Assembly (NCBI GenBank): GCA_030615265.1 | Contig: JAUWZP010000011.1 | Coordinates: 1-34,486, forward strand | Length of the DNA: 34,486 nucleotides | Direction: 5' to 3' | Origin: Candidatus Bathyarchaeota archaeon | Lineage (GTDB): Archaea; Thermoproteota; Bathyarchaeia; Bathyarchaeales; Bathyarchaeaceae | Shown: one piece after another, positions 2 through 15,918 of the stretch | Position numbering within the stretch: position 1 is the stretch's first letter | How the letters are laid out: each line of letters opens with the position of its first letter | Position numbers and translations under genes: made by a program | The notes under the pieces: generated by a model | Databases searched by the model: none | Told to the model about the DNA's origin: nothing | Seen by the model: only the letters and a program-made list of their open reading frames with translations

Positions 2-960
2 ACTGATGTTTCCTTGACCTTTACTGTGGATGAATCAACCTCCTGGATGGGCTACAGTCTGGACGGATCAGCAAATGTGACCGTTACTGGAAACACAACT
101 CTCACAAGTCTATCTGACGGAATGCATTATGTGGTTGTCTATGCTAACGATACCGTAGGCAACATGGGAGTATCTAGCAGGGTTTACTTCACCGTTGACA
201 CCACTTCTCCGACTGTTTCTGTTCTGTCTCCGGAGAACAAGACGTATGCTGCAAATATCCTTCCCTTAACCTTCACCGTAGACGAAACGACCACTTGGAT
301 TGGTTACAGCTTAGACAGACAAGCAAACGTAACCATCACAGGAAACACCTCTCTACCTGTTTTGTCTGATGGGTCGCATTACGTGATTGTATACGCTAAC
401 GACACTTTTGACAACATGGGATTGAGCACGGTTTACTTCACCGTTGACACCACTCCGCCCCCAATTTCCATCCTATCTCCAGAAAACAAGACGTATCCTA
501 CAGAAGATGTTCCCCTAAACTTCATCGTGAGTGAATCAACCTCATGGATAAAATACAGCTTAGATGGACAAGCGAACGCAACCATTACTGGAAACACAAC
601 TTTGACAGGACTATCTGAAGGAACACACAACCTAATGGTTTACGCAAGTGATATAGCTGGAAACATTGGTTCCTCTGACATGGCCTACTTTACCATGGAT
701 GCTACTCTCCCGAGCATTTCAATTCTGTCGCCAGAGAACAAAACCTATGACACAACTGACATCCCATTAACTTTCACGGTAGATGAATCAGTTTCATGGA
801 TGGCTTACAGCTTGGATGGACAAGCAAACGTAACCATTATTGAGGACATAACCCTAACTGGATTGTCTGACGGTTCGCATAGCCTAATAGTTTATGGTAG
901 AGATACAGCTGGAAACACTGGTGTTTCTGGAACAATCCATTTCAGCATAACAACCAAAGA
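2..960 (+). repeat. Tandem coding repeats of about 250 bp
   Basis: The surface-protein gene is built from imperfect tandem units of roughly 245-255 bp. The easiest marker is the SPENKTY codon block, seen near 228, 475 and 727 with the core GAGAACAAGACGTATG or close variants. The units are diverged in third positions, so they look old rather than freshly expanded. The pattern allows unit gain and loss by recombination and would make this gene hard to assemble. Confidence 0.7.
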
Positions 961-1078
961 AGCAGAGCCTTTCCCAATATTGATTGCAGCTACAATAGTA
1001 ACAATAGCCCTAGCTGCTGCAGGTCTTCTGGTATACTACAGAACGATCAAGAAAACAACTAAGAAAGTCAAAAAATAA
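2..1078 (+). CDS. Ig-like repeat surface protein, C-terminal part (5' end outside window)
   Basis: The reading frame is open at the left edge, and the TTG at 14 lies inside a repeat, so this is a fragment of a longer gene. About four copies of an 80-85 residue module are visible. Each carries a motif like TFTVDESTSW, then YSLDGQANVT, then LSDGSHYVIVYANDT, then YFTVDTT, and usually SPENKTY between modules. This looks like a bacterial/archaeal Ig-like or cadherin-like fold used in adhesins and cell-surface proteins. N-glycosylation sequons (NVT, NTT, NDT, NKT) recur in every unit. The last 35 residues form one hydrophobic segment (ILIAATIVTIALAAAGLLVY) and a lysine-rich tail, so the repeats should lie outside the cell. 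No PGF- or PEF-type sorting motif is visible, so this looks like a plain transmembrane anchor. Ligand and function are unknown. Confidence 0.75.
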   Translation, partial: TDVSLTFTVDESTSWMGYSLDGSANVTVTGNTTLTSLSDGMHYVVVYANDTVGNMGVSSRVYFTVDTTSPTVSVLSPENKTYAANILPLTFTVDETTTWIGYSLDRQANVTITGNTSLPVLSDGSHYVIVYANDTFDNMGLSTVYFTVDTTPPPISILSPENKTYPTEDVPLNFIVSESTSWIKYSLDGQANATITGNTTLTGLSEGTHNLMVYASDIAGNIGSSDMAYFTMDATLPSISILSPENKTYDTTDIPLTFTVDESVSWMAYSLDGQANVTIIEDITLTGLSDGSHSLIVYGRDTAGNTGVSGTIHFSITTKEAEPFPILIAATIVTIALAAAGLLVYYRTIKKTTKKVKK

Positions 1079-4431: not shown

Positions 4432-5580
4432 ATGAAAGCCAAAAGAATAGAAAAAATACTCGTAACCGGCGGAGCGGGCTTCATAGGCTCTCACACAGTA
4501 GACCTCCTCACAAAACATGGATACCAAGCAATAATCCTGGACAACCTTGAACCACAAGTCCACGGAAAACAAAAAGCAAAACCTGACTACATACATAAAG
4601 ACGCGACGTTCATTCAACATGACATTCAAGATCACAACTTCCTAACCAAAATCATCTCAGAAGTCGACGCCATAATCCATCTTGCCGCACTGGTAGGCGT
4701 AGGCCAATCAATGTACCAAATCGAACGCTACATCAACGCAAACACCCAAGCCACCGCCATCCTCCTTGATATCTTAGCAAAACAAGAACACAACATAAAA
4801 AAACTCATAGTAGCCTCCTCCATGAGCATCTACGGAGAAGGCAAATACCACTGCCAAAAATGCCAAACCGAAGCCTACCCAGACCTACGCAGCGAGGAAC
4901 AACTCAAAAAAAGACAATGGAACCAAACATGCCCAAACTGCAAGTCAATCTTGGAACCTTTGCCAACTGACGAAGACAAGCCTTTGATGCCAACTTCTAT
5001 TTACGCTCAATCCAAACGGCATCAAGAGGAAATGTGCCTTCTAACAGGAAAAACCTATGGCATACCCACAGTAGCCTTAAGATACTTCAACGTCTACGGA
5101 TCCCGCCAGTCACTCTCCAACCCATACACAGGCGCCTGCGCCATCTTCACAAGCCGCATACTCAACAACAACCCCCCCTACATCTTCGAAGACGGAAACC
5201 AAACAAGAGACTTCATCCACGTAAAAGACATAGCCCAAGCCAACCTAAAAGCACTTGAACAAGACAACGCAGACTACAAAGCCATAAACATCGCAACAGG
5301 AAAACCCATAACAATACTCAAACTAGCAAAAACCCTAACAAAACTATACAACAAACCAAACCTCAAACCACACATATCCAACCAATACCGCAAAGGCGAC
5401 ATCCGCCACTGCTACGCAGACATAACAAAAGCACAAAAACTACTAAACTTCAAACCCGCAATCACCCTACAAAAAGGACTAACCGAACTAAGCCAATGGG
5501 CCAAAACCCACAACTGGGGAGCCACAGACCTCTTCGAAAAAGCACTAAAAGAACTAAAAGAAAAACACCTCGCAACCTAA
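4432..5580 (+). CDS. NAD-dependent sugar-nucleotide epimerase, dTDP-L-rhamnose 4-epimerase-like
   Basis: This is an extended short-chain dehydrogenase/reductase of 382 residues. The NAD-binding loop is TGGAGFIGS (G13, G16, G19), and the catalytic set is Ser in ASSMSIYGEG with Y191-x-x-x-K195 (YAQSK). RYFNVYGSRQ, TRDFIHVKDIA and NIATGKP are typical substrate-side motifs. Two CxxC pairs (C141/C144 and C167/C170) sit in an insert after the Ser strand, probably binding zinc. This insert, together with VGVGQSMYQIERY, is characteristic of the dTDP-L-rhamnose 4-epimerase branch rather than of ordinary GalE, but the true substrate could be another NDP-hexose. It would supply an activated sugar for the glycan/flippase genes downstream. 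The coding strand is strongly A+C rich, especially 5280-5580. Confidence 0.8.
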   Translation: MKAKRIEKILVTGGAGFIGSHTVDLLTKHGYQAIILDNLEPQVHGKQKAKPDYIHKDATFIQHDIQDHNFLTKIISEVDAIIHLAALVGVGQSMYQIERYINANTQATAILLDILAKQEHNIKKLIVASSMSIYGEGKYHCQKCQTEAYPDLRSEEQLKKRQWNQTCPNCKSILEPLPTDEDKPLMPTSIYAQSKRHQEEMCLLTGKTYGIPTVALRYFNVYGSRQSLSNPYTGACAIFTSRILNNNPPYIFEDGNQTRDFIHVKDIAQANLKALEQDNADYKAINIATGKPITILKLAKTLTKLYNKPNLKPHISNQYRKGDIRHCYADITKAQKLLNFKPAITLQKGLTELSQWAKTHNWGATDLFEKALKELKEKHLAT

Positions 5581-5627: not shown

Positions 5628-5689
5628 TCCCACCTCAAAACACAATAAAACATAAATCCCACTAAAACAAAAATATAAAGTAGGTGGGA
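5628..5689 (+). promoter_or_regulatory. Long-range inverted repeat hiding the VapB-like ribosome site
   Basis: TCCCACCT (5628-5635) is the exact complement of AGGTGGGA (5682-5689), and the latter contains the Shine-Dalgarno for the ATG at 5693. A third partial copy, ATCCCACT, lies at 5657-5663. These repeats could be operator half-sites for the AbrB-type antitoxin or an RNA switch at the ribosome site. The 46-nt spacer is A-rich and contains TATA-like sequence. Confidence 0.4.
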
Positions 5690-5692
5690 AAG

Positions 5693-5935
5693 ATGGCTAT
5701 CCTTGAATTAGACAACAAAGGAAGACTGACGCTACCAAAAAAAATCCGGGAATCTCTCAACATCGGAAAAAAAATACTAATCATAAACGCTGGAGACCAC
5801 CTCAAAATAATTCCCCTACCATCCAACCCACTCCAAATCCTCCATGGCACATTCAACATCAAAAAATCATTCAAAAAACTAAGAAAACAAGCAGAACTAA
5901 CCGGTCAAAACGAAGCCAAAAAACAGAGGAGCTAA
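5693..5935 (+). CDS. VapB-type AbrB-family antitoxin
   Basis: This 80-residue protein opens with MAILELDNKGRLTLPKKIRE, the textbook SpoVT/AbrB swapped-hairpin signature, followed by LNIGKKILIINAGDHLKIIPLP. The C-terminal 30 residues (NIKKSFKKLRKQAELTGQNE) are helical and charged, the usual toxin-binding part of VapB antitoxins. It should neutralise the PIN protein encoded 8 nt downstream and repress the pair's own promoter. The ATG at 5693 is preferred over the in-frame GTG at 5684 because the GTG would lie inside the Shine-Dalgarno AGGTG and the family motif begins right after the ATG. Confidence 0.8.
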   Translation: MAILELDNKGRLTLPKKIRESLNIGKKILIINAGDHLKIIPLPSNPLQILHGTFNIKKSFKKLRKQAELTGQNEAKKQRS

Positions 5936-5943
5936 CCCTCCAA

Positions 5944-6348
5944 ATGCCCCTCTTAGAAAACGACCTCATTTTCGCATATTTAAACGAGTACGACTCCAAC
6001 CATGCGATCGCTGAAAGAATCTTCCAAAAACTCCAAACCGGAAAGATCACCGTAGAAATCTCAAGCGTCAGCCTAATTGAAATGGAGCTAATTTACCGAA
6101 GCGAAAAAATGGAACACAAACTCCTCAAAGACCTAGCCGCCATAGCAGCACTACCCCATGTACAATACATTGCATTAACCCCAGATGTGGCAGTTGCAAG
6201 CGTATACCTGAGGCAAACTCTTAACCTAACATTTTTCGACTCTCACTACGCCGCCATCGCACTAAACCTAGACGGAAAAATTATCTCATTCGACCAGGCG
6301 TATGATAGGGTACCAGGCTTGACACGAATCAAACCTGACACCATTTAA
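5944..6348 (+). CDS. PIN-domain ribonuclease toxin, VapC-like
   Basis: This 134-residue PIN domain has the usual acidic set: E5 or D7 in LLENDLIFAYLN, E46/E48 in SLIEMELIYR, D99 in FFDSHYAAIAL and D117 in IISFDQAYDRV. PIN toxins use these residues to hold metal and cleave RNA. The first motif reads E-N-D where most families have D-T/S-N, so the position of the first carboxylate is shifted or replaced; some archaeal PIN families show this too. The gene follows the VapB-like antitoxin after 8 nt, in the normal antitoxin-toxin order. It sits inside a surface-glycan block, a common place for such addiction pairs. Confidence 0.8.
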   Translation: MPLLENDLIFAYLNEYDSNHAIAERIFQKLQTGKITVEISSVSLIEMELIYRSEKMEHKLLKDLAAIAALPHVQYIALTPDVAVASVYLRQTLNLTFFDSHYAAIALNLDGKIISFDQAYDRVPGLTRIKPDTI

Positions 6349-6509: not shown

Positions 6510-8564
6510 ATGCGAATCACCAAAATCACCTTTCTAGCTACTCACAGCAAAACAGCTTTAACCATAAAGATCGCCGCCATCACACTTGCAACCCTCGCAA
6601 TCTATAACCAAGACTTATTCGCAATAGCCAACGAAGGCACAACGAGCGAACTAATGAGCTACATAATCGCCATACCCTTCCTCTTCGGATACTTCATCTA
6701 CCGCAAAAGGAAAATGCTCAAAGCAACCATAACATTCAAAGAATCTAAACCCTCCAGAAGCAATATCCACATTCACGAAATCGTCGGCGCACTATTCTGT
6801 CTACTAGCCCTCATAATCTACTGGCACGGATCCTACACATTTTATCCACTCGAATACCACATAGCTTCTCTTCCCCTCTTCCTAGCAGGAACCATCCTAA
6901 TAGTATTCAACACGCAAACCCTAAGAACCCTAACCTTCCCCATAACCTTCCTACTATTCCTCATCCCCCCACCCATTCAAACCATCTACACACTAGGCAC
7001 AACACTATCAACGTATAACTCTGAAACCGTATACACACTCCTCAAAACACTAGGCATGCCCGTCAGCCTAACAACCCAATACGGAGCACCAGTCATATTC
7101 CTCGAAAGCTCAGAAATACTGCCCTCAGCCTTCACAATTGACATAGCATGCGCAGGCATATACTCCCTAATAGGCTTCACCCTCTTCGCATCATTCTTCG
7201 CACACATTGCAAGAGGCGCAATGCCAAAAAAACTAGCAATATTCATCATAGGCCTTCCACTAATCTACGGGCTCAACATAATCCGAATCACAACCATCAT
7301 ACTAATCGGCGCCCAATATGGAATAGGAGCAGCCATAGGAGTATTCCATCTCTTCGGAGGTTGGGCCCTCATATTCCTAGGAACTCTAATCCTACTCCCC
7401 TTCTCAGAGAAGATACTAAAAATTCAGATCATAACCACAAAGTCCAAACCACAGCCCTGCTCACACTGTGACAAACGCCCAGTAGAAAAACAAAACTTCT
7501 GCCCAGCATGCGGAAGACTACAAACATACCCACGTATGAAAATCTCCAAACGAGACATGCTCAAAATAACTGCTCTCCTAATAAGCACAAGCCTAATCAT
7601 GCTTTACGGAGTACCCACACTCGCATTAACACAAGGACCTGAAGGAGTCGTAATAACAAGCGGCGAACAAGTAAGCACACAAATACTCCCAGAAATCCCA
7701 AGCTACACACTTGTATTCGTCGAAAGAAACACCGAATTTGAACAAATCTCAGGACAAGACGCCTCATTGGAGTACCAATACGTCGCTTATGGAAGCCCCA
7801 TCATCCGAGTGACCTTAGAAATAGGCGTCTCCCTATCGTCCGTCCATAGACCTGAGATAAGCTGGGTCACATGGCCACAAAGAACTGGACGCCAGCCCCA
7901 AGCCATACAACTAGACCTAAGAGATGTCCAGCTCCTCCAAAACCCACCCATAACCGCCAGGTTTTTCGCATTCGAGCATCCAGGATTTAATCAAACCCAA
8001 GTGATGTTATATTGGTATGAGCAAGCAATCTTCGAAACAGGTTCTGGCCTAGAACAGAAATACGTAAAAATAACCCTCATCGCCAACACTAACAACCCAC
8101 AAAACTTCTCCAAAATCGAGGACATGCTTTTACCATTCGGCGAAGCCATCGCCAACTACTGGAAGCCGATTAAAACCTGGTCCAAAATCACCTTAACCAT
8201 TGCCCAATACGGAACAACCTTGATTGCTGCGATAACCTCTTTGCTAGCAGTCATGCTAATTCTACATCGGATAAAGAGAATAAAACAATCAAAAGCCTCC
8301 CTTCAAACGTTTAACAAACTCGTTTTACCCGAAGAGAGAACCATCCTAAAAGCCGTCAATCAAGCAGGCCAGAAAGGAAGATCCACAGGTCAATCCGTAG
8401 CCTCATTCTATCAGAAACTCTCGCAAGCACCAATCAGATTTAAGACGCTTCTTCAGAAGCTTAGTCAAGCAGAAGAAGCAGGACTAATACACAGAGAAAT
8501 AGCTAACCAAGAGGACAACCCAATACTTATATGGAAAATCAATGTAAATTTGCCGAGTTCCTAA
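6510..8564 (+). CDS. Multidomain archaeosortase (exosortase family transpeptidase)
   Basis: The N-terminal 300 residues form about eight membrane helices with the exosortase/archaeosortase triad: C214 in DIACAGIYSL, R259 in NIIRIT and H280 in FHLFGGW. The family cleaves C-terminal sorting tails of surface proteins and attaches them to lipid. A four-Cys zinc ribbon follows (C317/C320 and C331/C334), then a membrane helix near 350-370. An extracellular domain of about 190 residues comes next, containing VHRPE (H446) and MLYWYEQ, which recall the EpsI/DUF3485 partner of bacterial exosortases. Another membrane helix (about 565-592) is followed by a cytoplasmic winged-helix-like end (about 606-680, ending GLIHREI...LIWKIN). 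Family members are usually about 200-300 residues, so this is a fusion. SD AAGGA lies 9 nt before the ATG. The probable substrate is encoded at 9862. Confidence 0.8.
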   Translation: MRITKITFLATHSKTALTIKIAAITLATLAIYNQDLFAIANEGTTSELMSYIIAIPFLFGYFIYRKRKMLKATITFKESKPSRSNIHIHEIVGALFCLLALIIYWHGSYTFYPLEYHIASLPLFLAGTILIVFNTQTLRTLTFPITFLLFLIPPPIQTIYTLGTTLSTYNSETVYTLLKTLGMPVSLTTQYGAPVIFLESSEILPSAFTIDIACAGIYSLIGFTLFASFFAHIARGAMPKKLAIFIIGLPLIYGLNIIRITTIILIGAQYGIGAAIGVFHLFGGWALIFLGTLILLPFSEKILKIQIITTKSKPQPCSHCDKRPVEKQNFCPACGRLQTYPRMKISKRDMLKITALLISTSLIMLYGVPTLALTQGPEGVVITSGEQVSTQILPEIPSYTLVFVERNTEFEQISGQDASLEYQYVAYGSPIIRVTLEIGVSLSSVHRPEISWVTWPQRTGRQPQAIQLDLRDVQLLQNPPITARFFAFEHPGFNQTQVMLYWYEQAIFETGSGLEQKYVKITLIANTNNPQNFSKIEDMLLPFGEAIANYWKPIKTWSKITLTIAQYGTTLIAAITSLLAVMLILHRIKRIKQSKASLQTFNKLVLPEERTILKAVNQAGQKGRSTGQSVASFYQKLSQAPIRFKTLLQKLSQAEEAGLIHREIANQEDNPILIWKINVNLPSS

Positions 8565-8613: not shown

Positions 8614-9510
8614 ATGCCAAACACACACAAAGTAAAAGAACACGAAACCAGGTTTGCTCCAAAAGTTCTAATCGAGACAATCCAGCAGCTCGAAGATGAG
8701 AAAGAAGCACTAAGGCGCGAACTATGGAAGTATAAACGAAAACCTGCCGGAAGAATCGGCTACCCACTTCTTTCTCTTGGCGCCATGGCGCTTATCTGGT
8801 CTGTGATATCCACATCTTATGTTCCCGCATTCATCGGCATAGCTCTAACGTTCTGGGGAGCCCTACTTCTATTCATAAGACCCATAAAATACGTGAAAGC
8901 CGACCTGCTAAACTCCACAGCCCTTCCAACATTCACAGCAATCAATAGAATAATCAAAAACCTGAATTACAAAGGCAAAGGCGTATATTTGCCTCCAAAA
9001 CACTTCAAAGGATTCAAAAGCGGAAAACTATTCATCTCATCGGAAGAAAACATCGACATCATTGAATACCTACCACCGGCTGAAAAAATAACCCGAGAAG
9101 AAGTTTTCTTCAAAAACCCCCAAGGCATGTGCCTTACTCCCTCAGGAGTAGACCTTACAAACCTTTTCGAGGATGAACTAGGAATAGACTTCAACAAGGT
9201 CGACATGGAATACCTTCAAACCAACCTTCCAAAACTTTTCATCGAGGGGCTCGAAATAGCCAAAGATTTCGAGATGAACACGCGCGGCAAGATAATCAGG
9301 ATCAAAATATGGAACTCCATCTACAAAGACTTTTGCAGTAGAGCCAGAAAGACTTCTAAGAACTCCTGCACCTCCTTTGCATGTCCTTTATGCAGCTCCA
9401 TCGCATGTGCCCTAACCCGCGTTACAGGCAAACCCATCATCATCAAAAAGAGCAAGGTTTCCTCAAAAGGCGAAAAAATAGAGGTTCACTATCAGATCAT
9501 AGAGGAATGA
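8614..9510 (+). CDS. Conserved-looking membrane protein of unknown function, archaeosortase-linked
   Basis: I do not recognise a named family. The 298 residues divide into a short coiled coil (about 20-45, IQQLEDEKEALRRELWKYK), two adjacent membrane helices (about 48-90), and a cytoplasmic alpha/beta domain. The C-terminus carries a cysteine cluster, CPLCSSIACAL, followed by TRVTGKPIIIKK, with further Cys residues just before it. The cluster could bind metal or be lipid-modified. The gene follows the archaeosortase by 49 nt and precedes a tiny two-helix protein by 3 nt, so it probably belongs to the same transcript and may be an accessory factor for sorting. Evidence for that role is purely positional. 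Confidence 0.6.
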   Translation: MPNTHKVKEHETRFAPKVLIETIQQLEDEKEALRRELWKYKRKPAGRIGYPLLSLGAMALIWSVISTSYVPAFIGIALTFWGALLLFIRPIKYVKADLLNSTALPTFTAINRIIKNLNYKGKGVYLPPKHFKGFKSGKLFISSEENIDIIEYLPPAEKITREEVFFKNPQGMCLTPSGVDLTNLFEDELGIDFNKVDMEYLQTNLPKLFIEGLEIAKDFEMNTRGKIIRIKIWNSIYKDFCSRARKTSKNSCTSFACPLCSSIACALTRVTGKPIIIKKSKVSSKGEKIEVHYQIIEE

Positions 9511-9513
9511 TGT

Positions 9514-9723
9514 TTGCAATTCCCACTGTCTTTTGCAGACCTGACGCTTTGGCTAGCCATCACATCAATCATCCTGCTAGCAACGTCGGAACTGATATCA
9601 CCATACTACGGAAGAACAAACCTACTGGTAGAAAAAAAGCGCCTACGGTCCACAGCCCTAACAGTTGGCATAATCTTTATTCTCTCCATTTTGGTGCAAA
9701 TCTACCTGATGGCGCCATTCTAA
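9514..9723 (+). CDS. Small two-helix membrane protein
   Basis: This 69-residue frame starts with TTG 3 nt after the preceding stop codon; GAGG in the upstream gene's last codons serves as Shine-Dalgarno. It consists almost entirely of two membrane helices (about 9-27 and 46-65) separated by a polar, basic loop (YYGRTNLLVEKKRLRST). Tight coupling with the 298-residue membrane protein suggests the two interact. No family recognised; it lies between the archaeosortase and its likely substrate. Confidence 0.6.
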   Translation: MQFPLSFADLTLWLAITSIILLATSELISPYYGRTNLLVEKKRLRSTALTVGIIFILSILVQIYLMAPF

Positions 9724-9861: not shown

Positions 9862-10533
9862 ATGTCAAAATCTAAGTCCTTACTAATATTCGCTCTATTG
9901 CTAGCTGTAGTATCAGTTCCACTTGCCAAAGCCGAAACAGGCACGATACGAATCGAACCAGCATTGCCCTTAATGATCGAAAGTCCCGCGAGCTTTGAGA
10001 TATGGGTCCAAGGAGCTGGAGACCCTACTTTCGAGCCCCACCTATTATTGGTTATGACCGAGACATCCTTCGATGGATGGCTCGTCGGCGACCTGGAAGT
10101 CAGTTGGACAGGCGGGTCGACAAGTTTCTCAAAAGCAGACTTCACGTACGCCGATGAACTAAGCGCAAAGGTTCCCCCCTCAGGTACAACACCCGGCGCC
10201 AGATACAATGTAGCAACCCTGAAGACCAAACTGAACTACCCCGTTGAGGAACCAATTGAAGAGCCAATCTACTGGGCAATGAAACCGTTTCTAAGCGGAC
10301 CCCTACACACATCGCCTAAACAAGAGTTCACTATAGAATTGCCATCCACAGATCCCCGAATGCTCATATACGCTCTAGGCAAGACGCAGCAGTCAAAGGT
10401 ACCTGAACTCTTCAACAACAAGGTACCACCTACAATACCGGGATTCGTAGTACCTGAACTTGGCACAATACTCCTAGCCGCAGCACCGTTTGCCGCCCTA
10501 GCACTATACGCGATCAAACGAAAGAAATTGTGA
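9862..10533 (+). CDS. Secreted surface protein with VPEL-type C-terminal sorting tail
   Basis: The 223-residue protein has a clear signal peptide (KSLLIFALLLAVVSVPLAKA, cleavage likely before ETGT) and an extracellular beta-rich domain. It ends in a tripartite tail: the motif VPELGT (from residue 197), a hydrophobic helix, and KRKKL. This is the architecture of archaeal CTERM proteins (PGF-, PEF- and VPxxxP-type) that archaeosortases process. The motif is closest to PEF/VPE variants by eye. The acidic-proline stretch NYPVEEPIEEPIYW and the segment TETSFDGWLVGDLEVSW are distinctive, but I recognise no ligand-binding family. It lies 1.3 kb after the archaeosortase on the same strand and is the obvious dedicated substrate. 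Confidence 0.75.
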   Translation: MSKSKSLLIFALLLAVVSVPLAKAETGTIRIEPALPLMIESPASFEIWVQGAGDPTFEPHLLLVMTETSFDGWLVGDLEVSWTGGSTSFSKADFTYADELSAKVPPSGTTPGARYNVATLKTKLNYPVEEPIEEPIYWAMKPFLSGPLHTSPKQEFTIELPSTDPRMLIYALGKTQQSKVPELFNNKVPPTIPGFVVPELGTILLAAAPFAALALYAIKRKKL

Positions 10534-10587
10534 CACATCTACAACGCGACAACAATGCTACAGCGCGTAGAAGTGACAGGTTTCCAC

Positions 10588-10611
10588 CTTTTTTACTTAA
10601 TACCTTAAGTA
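10588..10611 (+). terminator. Poly-T plus hairpin after the sorted surface protein
   Basis: A run of six T at 10589-10594 (after CCACC) sits about 55 nt past the stop codon. It is followed by the perfect 7-bp stem TACTTAA/TTAAGTA (10594-10611, loop TACC). Archaeal transcription ends at T-runs, so this is a reasonable terminator, though the hairpin lies after rather than before the T-run. Confidence 0.35.
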
Positions 10612-10789
10612 GCGATAAGGATCCAACATTCTACTAAAGAAAAGCTGCCTCCACACATGCATTTTTGTGTAGATTTAAGAATCTTCTGTTGCCTTAGGCA
10701 TCTTTAAGCCACAAAAACCCAGAAAATCTAAAAGCCTCGAACCCACAAACAACGATTACTTTAATCATAATGAAGGTGGAAGACGACTC

Positions 10790-11401
10790 GTGCCCGCAAA
10801 AAACAAACATAGATTGTCGAGTCTCGACAGGTCTATTATCAATATTCTTAGCAACGATCATCCCAAAACGGTTAAACAACTAATCAAGTTGGTGCAACTG
10901 AAGAACGATAGACCTGAACAGGAGATTGCTGAACGAGTCTTGCTTTTGCAGGATCAACGTAAGATAGTCCTTAAAGATCAACTTCCCCTTTCCTTCACCT
11001 TGAAAGACTACATGCTCTCATTTCACGCCTACTGGTACTTAGTAATCATCGTGCTTGCGGCAACCACGACAACTCTCATTTTAGCGAATCTAGAGCGCGC
11101 ACCCATCATTGGAGGTATTCTTCTATACGTAAGATACCTTTTCGGGTCAATATTCGTTCTCTTCCTTCCAGGATACAGCTTCATAAAAGCCCTATTTCCG
11201 GTAAAAGAAATTGACAACGTGGAACGCGCCGCCTTAAGCATCGGAATGAGCCTAGCCATCGTCGCTATCAACGCGCTAATCCTGAACTATACGCCATGGG
11301 GAATATCAACTAACCCCATAACACTCAGTCTGCTTGGCCTAACCTTAACTTTATCAACTGTAGCCGTTGTGCGAGAACATCAAACTCTTTCCAAGAAATA
11401 A
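10790..11401 (+). CDS. DUF1616-like membrane protein with N-terminal winged-helix segment
   Basis: Residues 1-65 look like a winged-helix domain (LDRSIINILSNDHPKTVKQLIKL). They are followed by four membrane helices, including the segment PGYSFIKALFPVKEIDNVERAALSIGMS, which resembles the DUF1616 (COG4743) family. DUF1616 proteins are common in archaeal surface-glycan and sorting loci, but their reaction is unknown. GTG at 10790 is chosen as start because AAGGTGG lies about 10 nt upstream. The flippase follows after about 60 nt on the same strand, so the two are probably cotranscribed. Confidence 0.7.
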   Translation: MPAKNKHRLSSLDRSIINILSNDHPKTVKQLIKLVQLKNDRPEQEIAERVLLLQDQRKIVLKDQLPLSFTLKDYMLSFHAYWYLVIIVLAATTTTLILANLERAPIIGGILLYVRYLFGSIFVLFLPGYSFIKALFPVKEIDNVERAALSIGMSLAIVAINALILNYTPWGISTNPITLSLLGLTLTLSTVAVVREHQTLSKK

Positions 11402-11462
11402 CAAAAACTACATCCAATCTCTATTTCTCCAGCACAAATAAACCTTCGAGGTGTCATGTCTA

Positions 11463-12986
11463 TTGGAAGCTAATAATGTAGCCAAAGGAACTTTCCAAAT
11501 AACATCTATGAACGCCATCCAATACATAGTTATGGCACTCTTCTACGTTGTTGTGGCGAAGACCAATGCCCTAACTCCAGCGGATCTAGGTCTCCTCTCC
11601 GTTCTATCCTTCATCGCCTCTACCCTTGTCTTATCAACACTGGCTTTACCCACAGCGTTAACCAAATTTGCATCGGAATATATGGGAAAAAACCAATCCC
11701 AAAAAGCTGCCTCTGTGCAACGAACCTTGACAAGAACCGTTGTAATGCTATCTCTAGCAGGTCTAATGGTAGCTACCATTCTCTCAGCACCGCTCTCACA
11801 ATACTTTTGGGGAGCCACTGAGAACGTCCCGCTGATAATCCTGATTTCCATATCAGCGTTCCTTATGAACCTGATAACCTTATACCGTTCTGGACTACGG
11901 GCTCTTCAGCTCTTCGGGAAAATGGCACAAGTAACCCTCATATACATCCTTATTAGTCGAATCATCGCTGCTATCCTAGCTTTACTCGGCTTTGGAGTTT
12001 CAGGCGTAATAATCGGCTACATTATAGGATCAATTGCAGGACTAACAGCAGCCATCACATTCGTCCGCGGCAAATTCGCCAAACCCAACAACCGGACACC
12101 CATAAAGCCTCTGCTCAAATTCAGCTTCCCCCTTTTCCTAAGTTCCCTGGCACTACTAATCTTAAGCCAAGCTGACATCATAATCCTAGCTTCTGCCACT
12201 TCTAACTATGCCCTCGTAGGAATCTATTCTGTAGCAGTCCGAAGCCTGCTTGCCCTTTCCGTGATCTGGCAACCAATCATGATCACAATATTCCCAATAA
12301 TCTCATCTCGATTCGGCCTTCAAAATCCTAAAGGTGTAAGCAACGCCCTAAAGATAGCAAGCCGATATTTATCTTACACGATCATTCCCAGCTGTGTTTT
12401 GCTGGCCACCGTAGCACCAACCGCACTAAACGTTTTTTATGGACCAAACTACGTTTCAGGCGCTACGGCCCTAGCTATACTAGCCATATCCATAATACTC
12501 GCTGCCCTCCTCACGCTTTTGACCACAACCTTGACAGCTATCGGAGAAACAAAACAGGTGTTGAAAATTAATCTGATTTCAGCGCTCGTGGCTGTCACGT
12601 TACTTATGAGCCTTGTGTCTATGTTTGATGTGGTCGGAGCAGCTGTCACACGATTGGCGGTGCGTGCCTTAAGCCTGACATTGGCAGTGCATATGCTTCG
12701 CAAACATGTAAGTGTTCAGTTAGACAGAGAAGCGTTGTGGAAGTCAGTCATAGCCTCGATAATGTCCGTACCATTCCTGTTTGTGCTGGAATCTGTGATG
12801 ACTGAAAGATTTCCCGCTTTTCAGGTTTTAGCTGCAGAAATCCTAGTGGCTGGAGTAGTCTACCTCGCATCCCTATATGCCCTTAAGGCTTTGAATGGCC
12901 AAGACTTCGAGCTGCTGAGGCAGTACTTTCCAAAGCCTTTCTCAAAACTAATTGATGGGCTTCAGAAAATCATGACTAGAAAATGA
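11463..12986 (+). CDS. Wzx-like oligosaccharide flippase (MOP superfamily)
   Basis: About 12-14 membrane helices span the whole protein, which is about 507 residues and of normal length for the family. NNVAKGTFQITSMNAIQYIV at the N-terminus, LALPTALTKFASEYMGK, and the central SQADIIILASATSNYALVGIYSVA are typical of polysaccharide-biosynthesis exporters in the MATE/MOP superfamily. Such proteins flip lipid-linked sugars across the membrane for S-layer glycosylation or polymer export. I place the start at TTG 11463, because GAGGTG lies 9 nt upstream; GTG at 11451 is in frame but overlaps that ribosome site. No glycosyltransferase lies next to it, so its partners must be encoded elsewhere. Confidence 0.8.
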   Translation: MEANNVAKGTFQITSMNAIQYIVMALFYVVVAKTNALTPADLGLLSVLSFIASTLVLSTLALPTALTKFASEYMGKNQSQKAASVQRTLTRTVVMLSLAGLMVATILSAPLSQYFWGATENVPLIILISISAFLMNLITLYRSGLRALQLFGKMAQVTLIYILISRIIAAILALLGFGVSGVIIGYIIGSIAGLTAAITFVRGKFAKPNNRTPIKPLLKFSFPLFLSSLALLILSQADIIILASATSNYALVGIYSVAVRSLLALSVIWQPIMITIFPIISSRFGLQNPKGVSNALKIASRYLSYTIIPSCVLLATVAPTALNVFYGPNYVSGATALAILAISIILAALLTLLTTTLTAIGETKQVLKINLISALVAVTLLMSLVSMFDVVGAAVTRLAVRALSLTLAVHMLRKHVSVQLDREALWKSVIASIMSVPFLFVLESVMTERFPAFQVLAAEILVAGVVYLASLYALKALNGQDFELLRQYFPKPFSKLIDGLQKIMTRK

Positions 12987-13076
12987 CAGCGTTGTGAAGT
13001 TCTAACCATGCGGCTGTACGAATCCCAATTTTGTCTACACAATCTCTACTCAGGTAAGCAGATCCCCAGCATTTGA

Positions 13077-13128
13077 GTATCACCGGTTATTCTGCCGTAT
13101 CAAAAAGAATCACGGTGACCGGCGATAC
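13077..13128 (-). other. Extended stem-loop between convergent genes
   Basis: GTATCACCGGT (13077-13087) faces ACCGGCGATAC (13118-13128). As minus-strand RNA all 11 pairs form (one G-U); as plus-strand RNA one pair is an A-C mismatch. Inside it ATTCT and AGAAT add a second stem. It lies downstream of both the flippase (plus) and the small membrane protein gene (minus). It could be a terminator, an RNA processing element or a small structured RNA. Confidence 0.4.
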
Positions 13129-13283
13129 CCTATTTGGAATACTGTAAAAGACACTAATCACTAGCTCACATGTGACAACAAAATTGCCAAAAAAGCCTCG
13201 TTGGCTCCATTGCAGTGGGAACACGTACATGGTGGAAGTAGAAGAACAAAGTTGTAAATGAAAGACTTCTGTCCGCTTAGGTT

Positions 13284-13511
13284 CTATTCCGTCCACTCAC
13301 TTGCCAATCTCCATATGAAAAATCCAGTCATGCTGATGAGAAAGGAAAAGATTGTGAAAGTGTCCTGCCTTAACCAAGGCGTGAGATGTGACAGCGGAGC
13401 AGACAACCATGAAGGATGTACAAACGCAATTATCACTCCATAGATCCAACCTAATAAACCGTAGACAAAGAGGAGTTCTCCAACAACTTTGGCAAGGGCC
13501 ACTAATTTCAT
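13284..13511 (-). CDS. Small two-helix membrane protein
   Basis: Within a longer open frame the convincing start is the ATG at 13511, with GAGGAG about 9 nt upstream. This gives a 75-residue protein. It has two membrane helices (LVALAKVVGELLFVYGLLGW and FTIFSFLISMTGFFIW) separated by a short polar loop with a Ser/Pro-rich stretch. No family recognised. It is divergent from the 125-residue membrane protein at 13698, with A/T-rich promoter-like DNA between them. Confidence 0.5.
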   Translation of the reverse strand: MKLVALAKVVGELLFVYGLLGWIYGVIIAFVHPSWLSAPLSHLTPWLRQDTFTIFSFLISMTGFFIWRLASEWTE

Positions 13512-15450: not shown

Positions 15451-15918
15451 CTAAGTTGTCGCGAGTATAGTGATGTCAAAGCTGAATGTAGTTATCCCCT
15501 GAATGGCTGCAGAAACCGACAACGTGAAAGTCGCTTGGACAACTTCTCCCACTGCGACTTGATATCCTTCACGATCCCAGCTGAGAACCACATAATCTGT
15601 GGCATTTGGAGGATTCCAGTTTGAAGTAAACATAGTTAGGTTGGCTGGGGAACTGCCTTCGTTACGGATATAGACTGCAACCGTTTTGTTTGAACCAGGT
15701 TCTAATGTACCCCAATCAATCCCAGAAACATCCATTGAACCTTCTTGATCCCAATAAATTCCCACGCCAATGGCCGTTATTGATCCACTATTTGAGATTG
15801 TTCTGTTTGACAGGATGGGCGACATAACTGGATTTGTTACGCTGATGGCTAAGGCAAAAATCACAAGTAAGAGTGTTGCTACAAGGATTTTGGTCTTATT
15901 TCTGCTTATTGCTCGCAT
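15451..15918 (-). CDS. Secreted archaeal surface protein with signal peptide
   Basis: The 155-residue protein has a signal peptide or N-terminal anchor (KILVATLLLVIFALAISV) followed by a compact beta-sandwich-like domain. Distinctive segments are GVGIYWDQEGSMDVSGIDWG, VAVYIRNEGSSPANLTMF, SNWNPPNATDYVVLSWDREG and ITTFSFDITI. I know this pattern as a recurrent secreted protein type in uncultured TACK archaea, with no assigned function; that is recalled similarity, not a search result. Sequons (NLT, NAT, NKT) suggest glycosylation. The upstream DNA is A/T-rich with ATACATACTATAAAT, giving a very short leader. Confidence 0.65.
   Translation of the reverse strand: MRAISRNKTKILVATLLLVIFALAISVTNPVMSPILSNRTISNSGSITAIGVGIYWDQEGSMDVSGIDWGTLEPGSNKTVAVYIRNEGSSPANLTMFTSNWNPPNATDYVVLSWDREGYQVAVGEVVQATFTLSVSAAIQGITTFSFDITILATT

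Follow-up and report, generated by a model that had tools for sequence, protein, structure and literature searches.

The window analyzed here, a 34,486-nucleotide stretch from a Candidatus Bathyarchaeota archaeon (GenBank assembly GCA_030615265.1, contig JAUWZP010000011.1), carries a surface-polysaccharide locus in which two unfamiliar membrane protein genes follow an archaeosortase. In order, and all on the forward strand, lie genes for a nucleotide-sugar epimerase-like protein (4432-5580; PF01370, 184.4 bits), a large archaeosortase of 684 amino acids (6510-8564), a 298-amino acid membrane protein, P298 (8614-9510, ATG start; based on the open reading frame list, an AlphaFold model, and fold comparison), a 69-amino acid protein with two transmembrane helices, P69 (9514-9723, TTG start), which is the usual downstream partner of P298, a secreted protein with a C-terminal VVPELG, a hydrophobic stretch, and a basic tail (9862-10533), a DUF1616 membrane protein (10790-11401; PF07760, 95.9 bits) that recurs as a neighbor of P298-P69 and in operons of a P298 paralog, and a Wzx/MATE-like polysaccharide flippase (11451-12986; PF01943, 81.3 bits). 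An earlier note on this DNA had described P298 and P69 as unfamiliar genes wedged between the archaeosortase and the VPEL-tailed protein; the coordinates, the order, and the gaps of 49 nt (archaeosortase to P298) and 3 nt (P298 to P69) proved exact, and in profile scans neither protein scored above a Pfam or NCBIfam cut-off. Both are real genes, beyond chance: homologs exist, and the gene order is usually kept. Homologs of P298 are 25-56% identical, and those of P69 26-90%. Of 38 named loci with P298 relatives, most are from Bathyarchaeota, and 37 have a strong hit.

The 684-amino acid protein is a member of the exosortase/archaeosortase family, scoring 119 bits against PF09721 (cut-off 25.7) and 58.5 bits against TIGR04178 (cut-off 23), with Cys, Arg, and His at C214, R259, and H280 within conserved motifs. 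By alignment, the codons of this presumed catalytic triad begin at 7149, 7284, and 7347 (7149-7349, forward strand); EpsH has conserved Cys, Arg, and His residues as well (PMC1569441). Thirteen homologs align over their full length and keep the three motifs, except that L037 has Ser for Cys. The protein is built from an exosortase core, a zinc ribbon with conserved cysteines, an extracytoplasmic domain, a transmembrane segment, and a cytoplasmic tail, and weak winged-helix/HTH hits in a few of the 13 members suggest that this tail may be winged-helix-like. The ectodomain has a single Pfam hit, PF11984 (DUF3485/EpsI), at E 0.013 and below cut-off; the same family was the best Pfam hit in two of three ectodomains tested (E 0.013 and 0.076, both below cut-off), the third being without a hit, and the ectodomain did not match TIGR02914. 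The weak DUF3485 similarity agrees with the EpsI-fused exosortases that have been described (PMC1569441) but does not establish membership in EpsI. In its enzyme, its tripartite C-terminal tails, and its polysaccharide genes, the locus resembles known exosortase/archaeosortase systems (PF09721, some with EpsI, PF11984/TIGR02914), but neither P298 nor P69 reaches the Pfam or NCBIfam cut-off of any named family associated with exosortases. As a separate observation made by eye, both the C-terminus of the archaeosortase and the N-terminus of the DUF1616 protein (10790-11401) look like winged-helix-like cytoplasmic segments, which is unusual among surface-assembly proteins.

In the AlphaFold model, P298 comprises a helix (residues 16-41), a transmembrane hairpin (residues 45-66 and 69-87; 8746-8874, forward strand), and a soluble part of ~210 residues. 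The hairpin, delimited by model helices, hydropathy, and conservation, contains the most conserved stretch of the protein (AFIGLGLTFWG in the family consensus). There are 11 K/R and 8 D/E among residues 1-44 and none in the loop that joins the hairpin helices, and RPIKYVK follows the hairpin; because of this pattern, both ends of P298 are assigned to the cytoplasm and the soluble domain is probably on the cytoplasmic side, although the charge asymmetry is weak and the assignment correspondingly so. A conserved CPxxSxxAC motif (residues 257-265; 9382-9408, forward strand) opens the last long helix; in it, C257 is kept in 31/35 homologs, P258 in 34/35, S261 in 35/35, A264 in 33/35, and C265 in 22/35. 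At the positions of the other four of the six cysteines in P298, between 3 and 10 of the 35 sequences have Cys. Thus, the description of P298 as a coiled-coil/two-helix/cysteine-cluster protein fits the coiled-coil-like helix and the hairpin but not the cysteines, since only C257 and, in part, C265 are conserved, and we rejected a metal-binding or redox role for them on the same grounds. Other candidates also failed: among the 24 members scanned, the hairpin was matched by DUF308 in two (best E 0.00096) and by NfeD in one (best E 0.00035), the best sequence relative in the PDB reached E 0.086 and was not convincing, and assignment to a haloarchaeal DUF is without Pfam support. P69, as stated earlier, is a two-helix protein, with hydrophobic helices at residues 5-23 and 48-66. 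An HpsJ-like identity was rejected: HpsJ_like_C, the only lead for P69, was hit in 3/21 members and scored 17 bits, below its cut-off of 140, likely a hit on transmembrane composition.

The soluble domain of P298 (residues 90-298; 8881-9507, forward strand) likely adopts the V4R/TRAPP-Bet3 fold, as indicated by structure models and a profile comparison. A first AlphaFold2 model, made from an alignment of 35 sequences (pLDDT 84.5, pTM 0.72), was compared to known structures with VIA-align, and all 50 of the 50 matches listed were TRAPP/Bet3, V4R, MopR/PoxR/DmpR, H-NOX, BcsD, or YslB proteins, including Thorarchaeota TRAPPC3 and the V4R protein MJ1460. The best match was 3kxc_C (Z 7.9, 3.3 A over 125 residues), which we take to be TRAPP (its title reads 'Mutant transport protein'). 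A second model, of a Nitrosocaldus homolog (pLDDT 74.4), gave a best Z of 8.2 (3kxc_C and 2cfh_C), Z values of 7-8 being in the range that VIA-align calls common; every listed match that covers the soluble domain belongs to the same superfamily, and the other listed matches (histidine kinases and ChpT) fall on residues 26-90, the hairpin region alone. In both predicted structures, helices pack on one side and a four-stranded antiparallel sheet on the other. We take the matched structures to form one superfamily, a grouping that in part follows PMC10933270. Foldseek was less decisive: its best match to the P298 model was TRAPPC3 (6aq3) at E 0.021, a value also reached by a histidine kinase with an rmsd of 14.8, none was below 0.001, and among its top 50 were also AlaX, designed proteins, and further kinases, at rmsd values of 7 to 22.

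Profile alignment provides independent evidence. With hhalign, residues 168-286 of P298 were collinear with a profile of 23 V4R sequences from neighboring genomes over 111 columns (score 32.5, E 2.2e-4, Prob 45%). None of 300 column shuffles reached this score (mean 12.1, max 20.4), the reversed profile scored 15.6, and 15 control families gave scores of 8.5-19.1 when aligned to V4R and of at most 22.0 when aligned to P298; the archaeosortase profile matched P298 with a Prob of 0.3. P298 shares with V4R (PF02830)/TRAPP-Bet3 the order of two helices, a beta hairpin, helices, and a second beta hairpin, and differs in having a transmembrane hairpin as an anchor and P69 as a partner. The two C-terminal cysteines of the V4R motif ExKCxxKGDxxCxF, a zinc site that is invariant in the 23 local V4R sequences, have no counterpart in the P298 alignments, and a conserved Ser/Ala in the last helix replaces the V4R glycine pair (GxxxG pairs in Bet3/V4R; PMC2253512). 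HMMER found no V4R domain (PF02830) in the P298 of the window (E<=1) or in 24 homologs (E<=0.1). Thus, the models and the profile match make the fold likely, and P298 falls outside the V4R family proper. It is quite improbable, in our judgment, that P298 has an unrelated alpha/beta fold merely resembling V4R/Bet3, with the pair serving as a ligand-free structural membrane scaffold: such a reading would account for the modest Foldseek E value, the Z below 8 for the protein in the window, and the silence of HMMER, but two models of different sequences led to one superfamily, and the profile match lies beyond all 300 shuffles. Relatives with this fold dimerize and bind hydrophobic ligands, such as palmitate in TRAPPC3 and phenols in PoxR (PMC10933270), and V4R itself has been described as a predicted hydrocarbon-binding domain (PMC2253512). 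The cellulose-synthase accessory protein BcsD/AxCesD resembles P298 in fold and in its polysaccharide export context; the likeness is at the level of the fold alone, and P298 differs in being membrane-anchored.

An early survey found P298 in 23 of 61 genomes (the genome of the window and its relatives). Profile searches of 256 genomes of the class detected P298 in 71 (E<=0.001), the archaeosortase profile in 108, and P69 in 67. The tallies that follow use 78 P298 loci scoring 90 bits or more, spread over 65 genomes (12 rows with lower scores were dropped, and the two rows of a split gene in G137 were merged), 46 archaeosortase rows scoring 137 bits or more, from 41 genomes, and the full set of 81 P69 rows. 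In the remaining 67 genomes with an archaeosortase match the scores are lower, and most of these matches involve the core alone. P69 lies directly downstream of P298 (<150 bp, same strand) at 63/78 loci and within 30 kb on the same contig at 73/78; it is absent within 30 kb from the remaining five, one of which is at a contig end. The archaeosortase lies directly upstream (<200 bp) at 21/78 loci and within 30 kb at 36/78. By genome, 38 encode both P298 and the large archaeosortase, three the archaeosortase only (G117, G127, and G136), 27 P298 only, and 188 neither; by genus, the corresponding numbers are 23, 1, 8, and 76. P298 is therefore present in 38/41 genomes and 23/24 genera that have the large archaeosortase (Fisher p 3e-24 by genome and 9e-16 by genus, both ignoring kinship).

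These numbers bear on the idea, put forward in the earlier note, that a conserved order would mark the two genes as new parts of an archaeal sorting complex. The conserved order holds to the extent of the linkage and co-occurrence just given, but 27/65 P298 genomes are without the large enzyme; and where the note had looked to homologs lying mostly away from archaeosortases as an argument against its idea, the loci divide about half and half. Because P298 and P69 are paired at 63/78 loci, as against 21/78 for the archaeosortase, and because of the 27 genomes without it, we regard P298-P69 as a stable unit and the archaeosortase as a frequent, non-obligatory neighbor. The pair is thus conserved, with a strong but non-exclusive tie to the large archaeosortase. 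Scaffold gaps of 100 N occur on the archaeosortase side of P298 in G002, G008, and G019, so the missing archaeosortase of G002, which is among the 27, tells nothing. Apparent archaeosortase remnants in G019 and G008, as if the C-terminal half had been selectively retained, border these gaps and were dismissed as assembly artifacts. Since TIGR04178 matched in 20 of 32 chosen genomes, mostly P298 genomes without a linked large enzyme, a tie to other, shorter archaeosortases is possible.

Among the 24 named loci without the archaeosortase that were included in the tree described next, a homolog of the flippase in the window lies directly upstream of P298 in 11, and five end before any gene upstream; flippase-type loci usually have a YdjM/DUF457-like gene downstream (PF04307, 57.6 bits in one member). 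A tree of 37 P298 proteins (36 named plus that of the window; L085, a short ORF, and L120 were left out) contains a 14-row clade without the archaeosortase (support 98/94), in which the flippase is directly upstream in 11/14. On this tree the archaeosortase label changed six times, versus 11.0 in shuffles, of which 0 or 1 of 500 were as low; the absence is unsure for L090, L091, L095, L107, and L113, which have <220 upstream bases, and for L104, L114, and L119, which have 2.5-3 kb. On a simple reading, linkage to the archaeosortase would be old in Bathyarchaeia and lost in the 14-row clade. Tails of the VPE type (V/I-P-E, a hydrophobic stretch, and a basic end, a pattern set after seeing the tail in the window and revised once) occur at 8/13 named loci with the archaeosortase and 1/21 without it (Fisher p 5e-4), a count that leaves out L116, L119, L120, and L121, two of which have VPE tails. 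The single tail without the archaeosortase is on an opposite-strand ORF and looks spurious, and L084, among the eight, has a spurious match besides a good one. The VPEL-tailed protein of the window (9862-10533) is presumably an archaeosortase substrate.

Flippase, epimerase, or glycosyltransferase genes occur in many P298 loci, with and without the archaeosortase. Together with the flippase of the 14-row clade, they might indicate that the pair serves polysaccharide export, regulating or coupling to a Wzx-type flippase, and that the archaeosortase is linked solely because exosortases occupy polysaccharide loci; exosortases do sit among exopolysaccharide genes (PMC1569441). We find this doubtful, as P298 and the large archaeosortase co-occur strongly across genomes, including some in which the two are unlinked, and the Nitrosocaldus-type and several other loci have no flippase beside the pair. 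Another reading, which takes up the sorting complex of the earlier note and in which P298 and P69 are dedicated subunits of an archaeosortase complex that hold the enzyme and present its substrate, would explain the 21 adjacent loci, the presence of P298 in nearly all genomes with the large enzyme, and the distribution of VPE tails. This too we consider unlikely, given the 27 P298 genomes without that enzyme, the Bathycorpusculum-type loci, where the pair follows a flippase and the stretches examined held no convincing VPE tail, and a paralog that resides in a MoxR-DUF58 operon.

Across the phylum, the P298 profile matched in 49/398 genomes, paralogs included. Outside the class, P298 itself is found in five genomes of two families, and three of these genomes have a large exosortase on another contig or ~38 kb away. 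Judged by length and by score against the archaeosortase profile, those of G310 (675 amino acids, 633 bits), G422, and G472 (723 and 749 amino acids, 466 and 423 bits, respectively) are of the same type as the enzyme in the window; that of G543 is cut by the contig end (323 amino acids, 278 bits), and G485 has a 323-amino acid frame only. In Nitrosocaldus-type genomes, P298 and P69 are followed by two genes for membrane or secreted proteins and then by DUF1616. The paralog family (236-278 amino acids; ten sequences) is found in other Thermoproteota and some Bathyarchaeia and aligns with P298 over its full length (hhalign Prob 99.5, E 3e-23, 237 columns); on its own it scored 17.9 against V4R, a value reached by 3/150 shuffles. 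At the ten paralog loci, DUF1616 is adjacent in five, and a small membrane ORF of 81-100 amino acids follows in seven, not counting an ORF of the same length on the other strand in L227. This small family is weakly similar to P69, with a score of 20.6 that lies beyond 150 shuffles (max 18.7).

In the two loci scanned, L222 and L226, the genes that come after the small ORF encode a surface protein of Ig/DUF4129-like type (below cut-off), then DUF4350, an AAA ATPase of the MoxR family (by Pfam in L222, by position and look alone in L226), and DUF58. Judged from sequence, the paralog is an older duplicate of P298 residing in DUF1616-DUF4350-MoxR-DUF58 operons, whereas no MoxR, DUF58, or DUF4350 was found among the seven genes scanned at the locus of the window. 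The DUF58 of these operons may correspond to the vWA protein in the arCOG01314 table. The predicted archaeal secretion system of arCOG01314 (DUF4350) resembles the paralog operons in that DUF4350, MoxR, and DUF1616 (pfam07760) appear in Table 2 of Makarova et al. 2015, which lists pfam07760, MoxR, vWA proteins, and an unnamed 'membrane protein with 2-3 TMs' (PMC5898192), and both L222 and L226 have the DUF4350 and DUF58 genes characteristic of it. The unnamed protein may be the P298 paralog; a term search of the main text of that paper found neither 'V4R' nor 'exosortase'. In Haloferax, a single glycoprotein cluster contains both the DUF1616 protein HVO_2173 and HVO_2160, which is an ArtA substrate, either confirmed or predicted (PMC8241124). 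The paralog operons, the arCOG01314 table, and this cluster together make DUF1616 a neighbor common to sorting and the DUF4350-type system.

With a probability of about 0.5, we propose that P298 and P69 form a two-gene module at the cytoplasmic membrane, consisting of a V4R-fold adaptor or lipid sensor and its partner, that is common to several surface-assembly systems. Gene order, co-occurrence, family, the resemblance of the predicted fold, and paralogy are observed; we infer the cytoplasmic side, the P298-P69 contact, dimerization, a ligand, and the adaptor role. P298 would be anchored through its transmembrane hairpin, with the V4R/TRAPP-Bet3-fold domain on the cytoplasmic face, and P69 would contribute a second hairpin, most likely packing against the first. 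The V4R-fold domain, whose relatives dimerize and either hold a hydrophobic ligand or dock a partner, would recruit or gate the surface-assembly enzyme encoded beside P298. This enzyme varies by locus: in the window it is the archaeosortase, which has a zinc ribbon and a tail of winged-helix-like character; elsewhere it is a lipid-linked-sugar flippase; and for the paralog it is a DUF1616/MoxR complex. The domain would then face the cytoplasmic tail of the archaeosortase, DUF1616, or the flippase, and could couple lipid supply to surface assembly, a role that fits all of the neighborhoods. In Haloferax, PssA and PssD assist the lipid anchoring of archaeosortase substrates; the genes for these two proteins are syntenic with artA in Methanosarcina (PMC7157517). 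A more specific and speculative version, which we rate as rather unlikely, makes P298 a lipid receptor of the Bet3/V4R type, tethered to the membrane, that would act together with P69 to sense or pass on an isoprenoid lipid. This lipid would be the one employed across the membrane for anchoring or for carrying sugars. The pair would then be an ancient archaeal module duplicated early in Thermoproteota, one copy would serve exosortase/polysaccharide loci and the other the DUF1616-MoxR-DUF58 system, and a vesicle-tether fold would have a prokaryotic use at the membrane where surfaces are assembled.

To our knowledge, exosortase/archaeosortase systems have been described mainly as an enzyme plus its tailed substrates. 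P298-P69 is a concrete, testable candidate for the coupling of such an enzyme to lipid or polysaccharide supply, and a new candidate helper of cell-surface assembly with a fold that binds hydrophobic ligands in its relatives. Two findings were unexpected, the V4R/Bet3 fold and the occurrence of paralogous genes in a DUF1616-MoxR-DUF58 operon: the first gives a probable fold to families without a Pfam match above cut-off, and the second links two orphan archaeal surface systems by the parts they have in common. The pair is named nowhere in the main-text literature searched, and the genes may have been noticed earlier.

Several minor observations accompany these results. In the window, a small gene pair between the epimerase and the archaeosortase (5684-6348, forward strand) looks by eye like an AbrB/VapB-type antitoxin and a PIN toxin, and the ORF list shows, at 14-1078 (forward strand), a surface protein that has several repeats and a transmembrane segment at its C-terminus. 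A 155-amino acid secreted protein (15451-15918, reverse strand), TasA/pilin-like by eye and without a Pfam match above cut-off, belongs to a family of 29 members found at 15/26 loci compared, the window included, where its genes often lie close to the P298 locus but on the other strand. L051 (G039:C158, ~9999-13327, reverse strand) has a pair of neighboring P298-like ORFs (526 and 531 amino acids) that are aberrant and contain long inserted segments; one of these ORFs is probably the source of the single DUF5752 match among the 24 P298 members scanned. P298-like matches on contigs of other lineages, L104 (Clostridiales), L091 (Baldrarchaeota), and L120 (Cytophagales), are on short contigs and are possibly binning errors. 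Beside the P298 paralog, L219 (3375-5165, reverse strand) and L220 (a 596-amino acid ORF) each encode a remote, full-length archaeosortase homolog (hhalign Prob 97.6, E 2.9e-12, from two sequences); their catalytic residues seem not to be kept, and a pseudo-exosortase beside a P298-like gene is possible.
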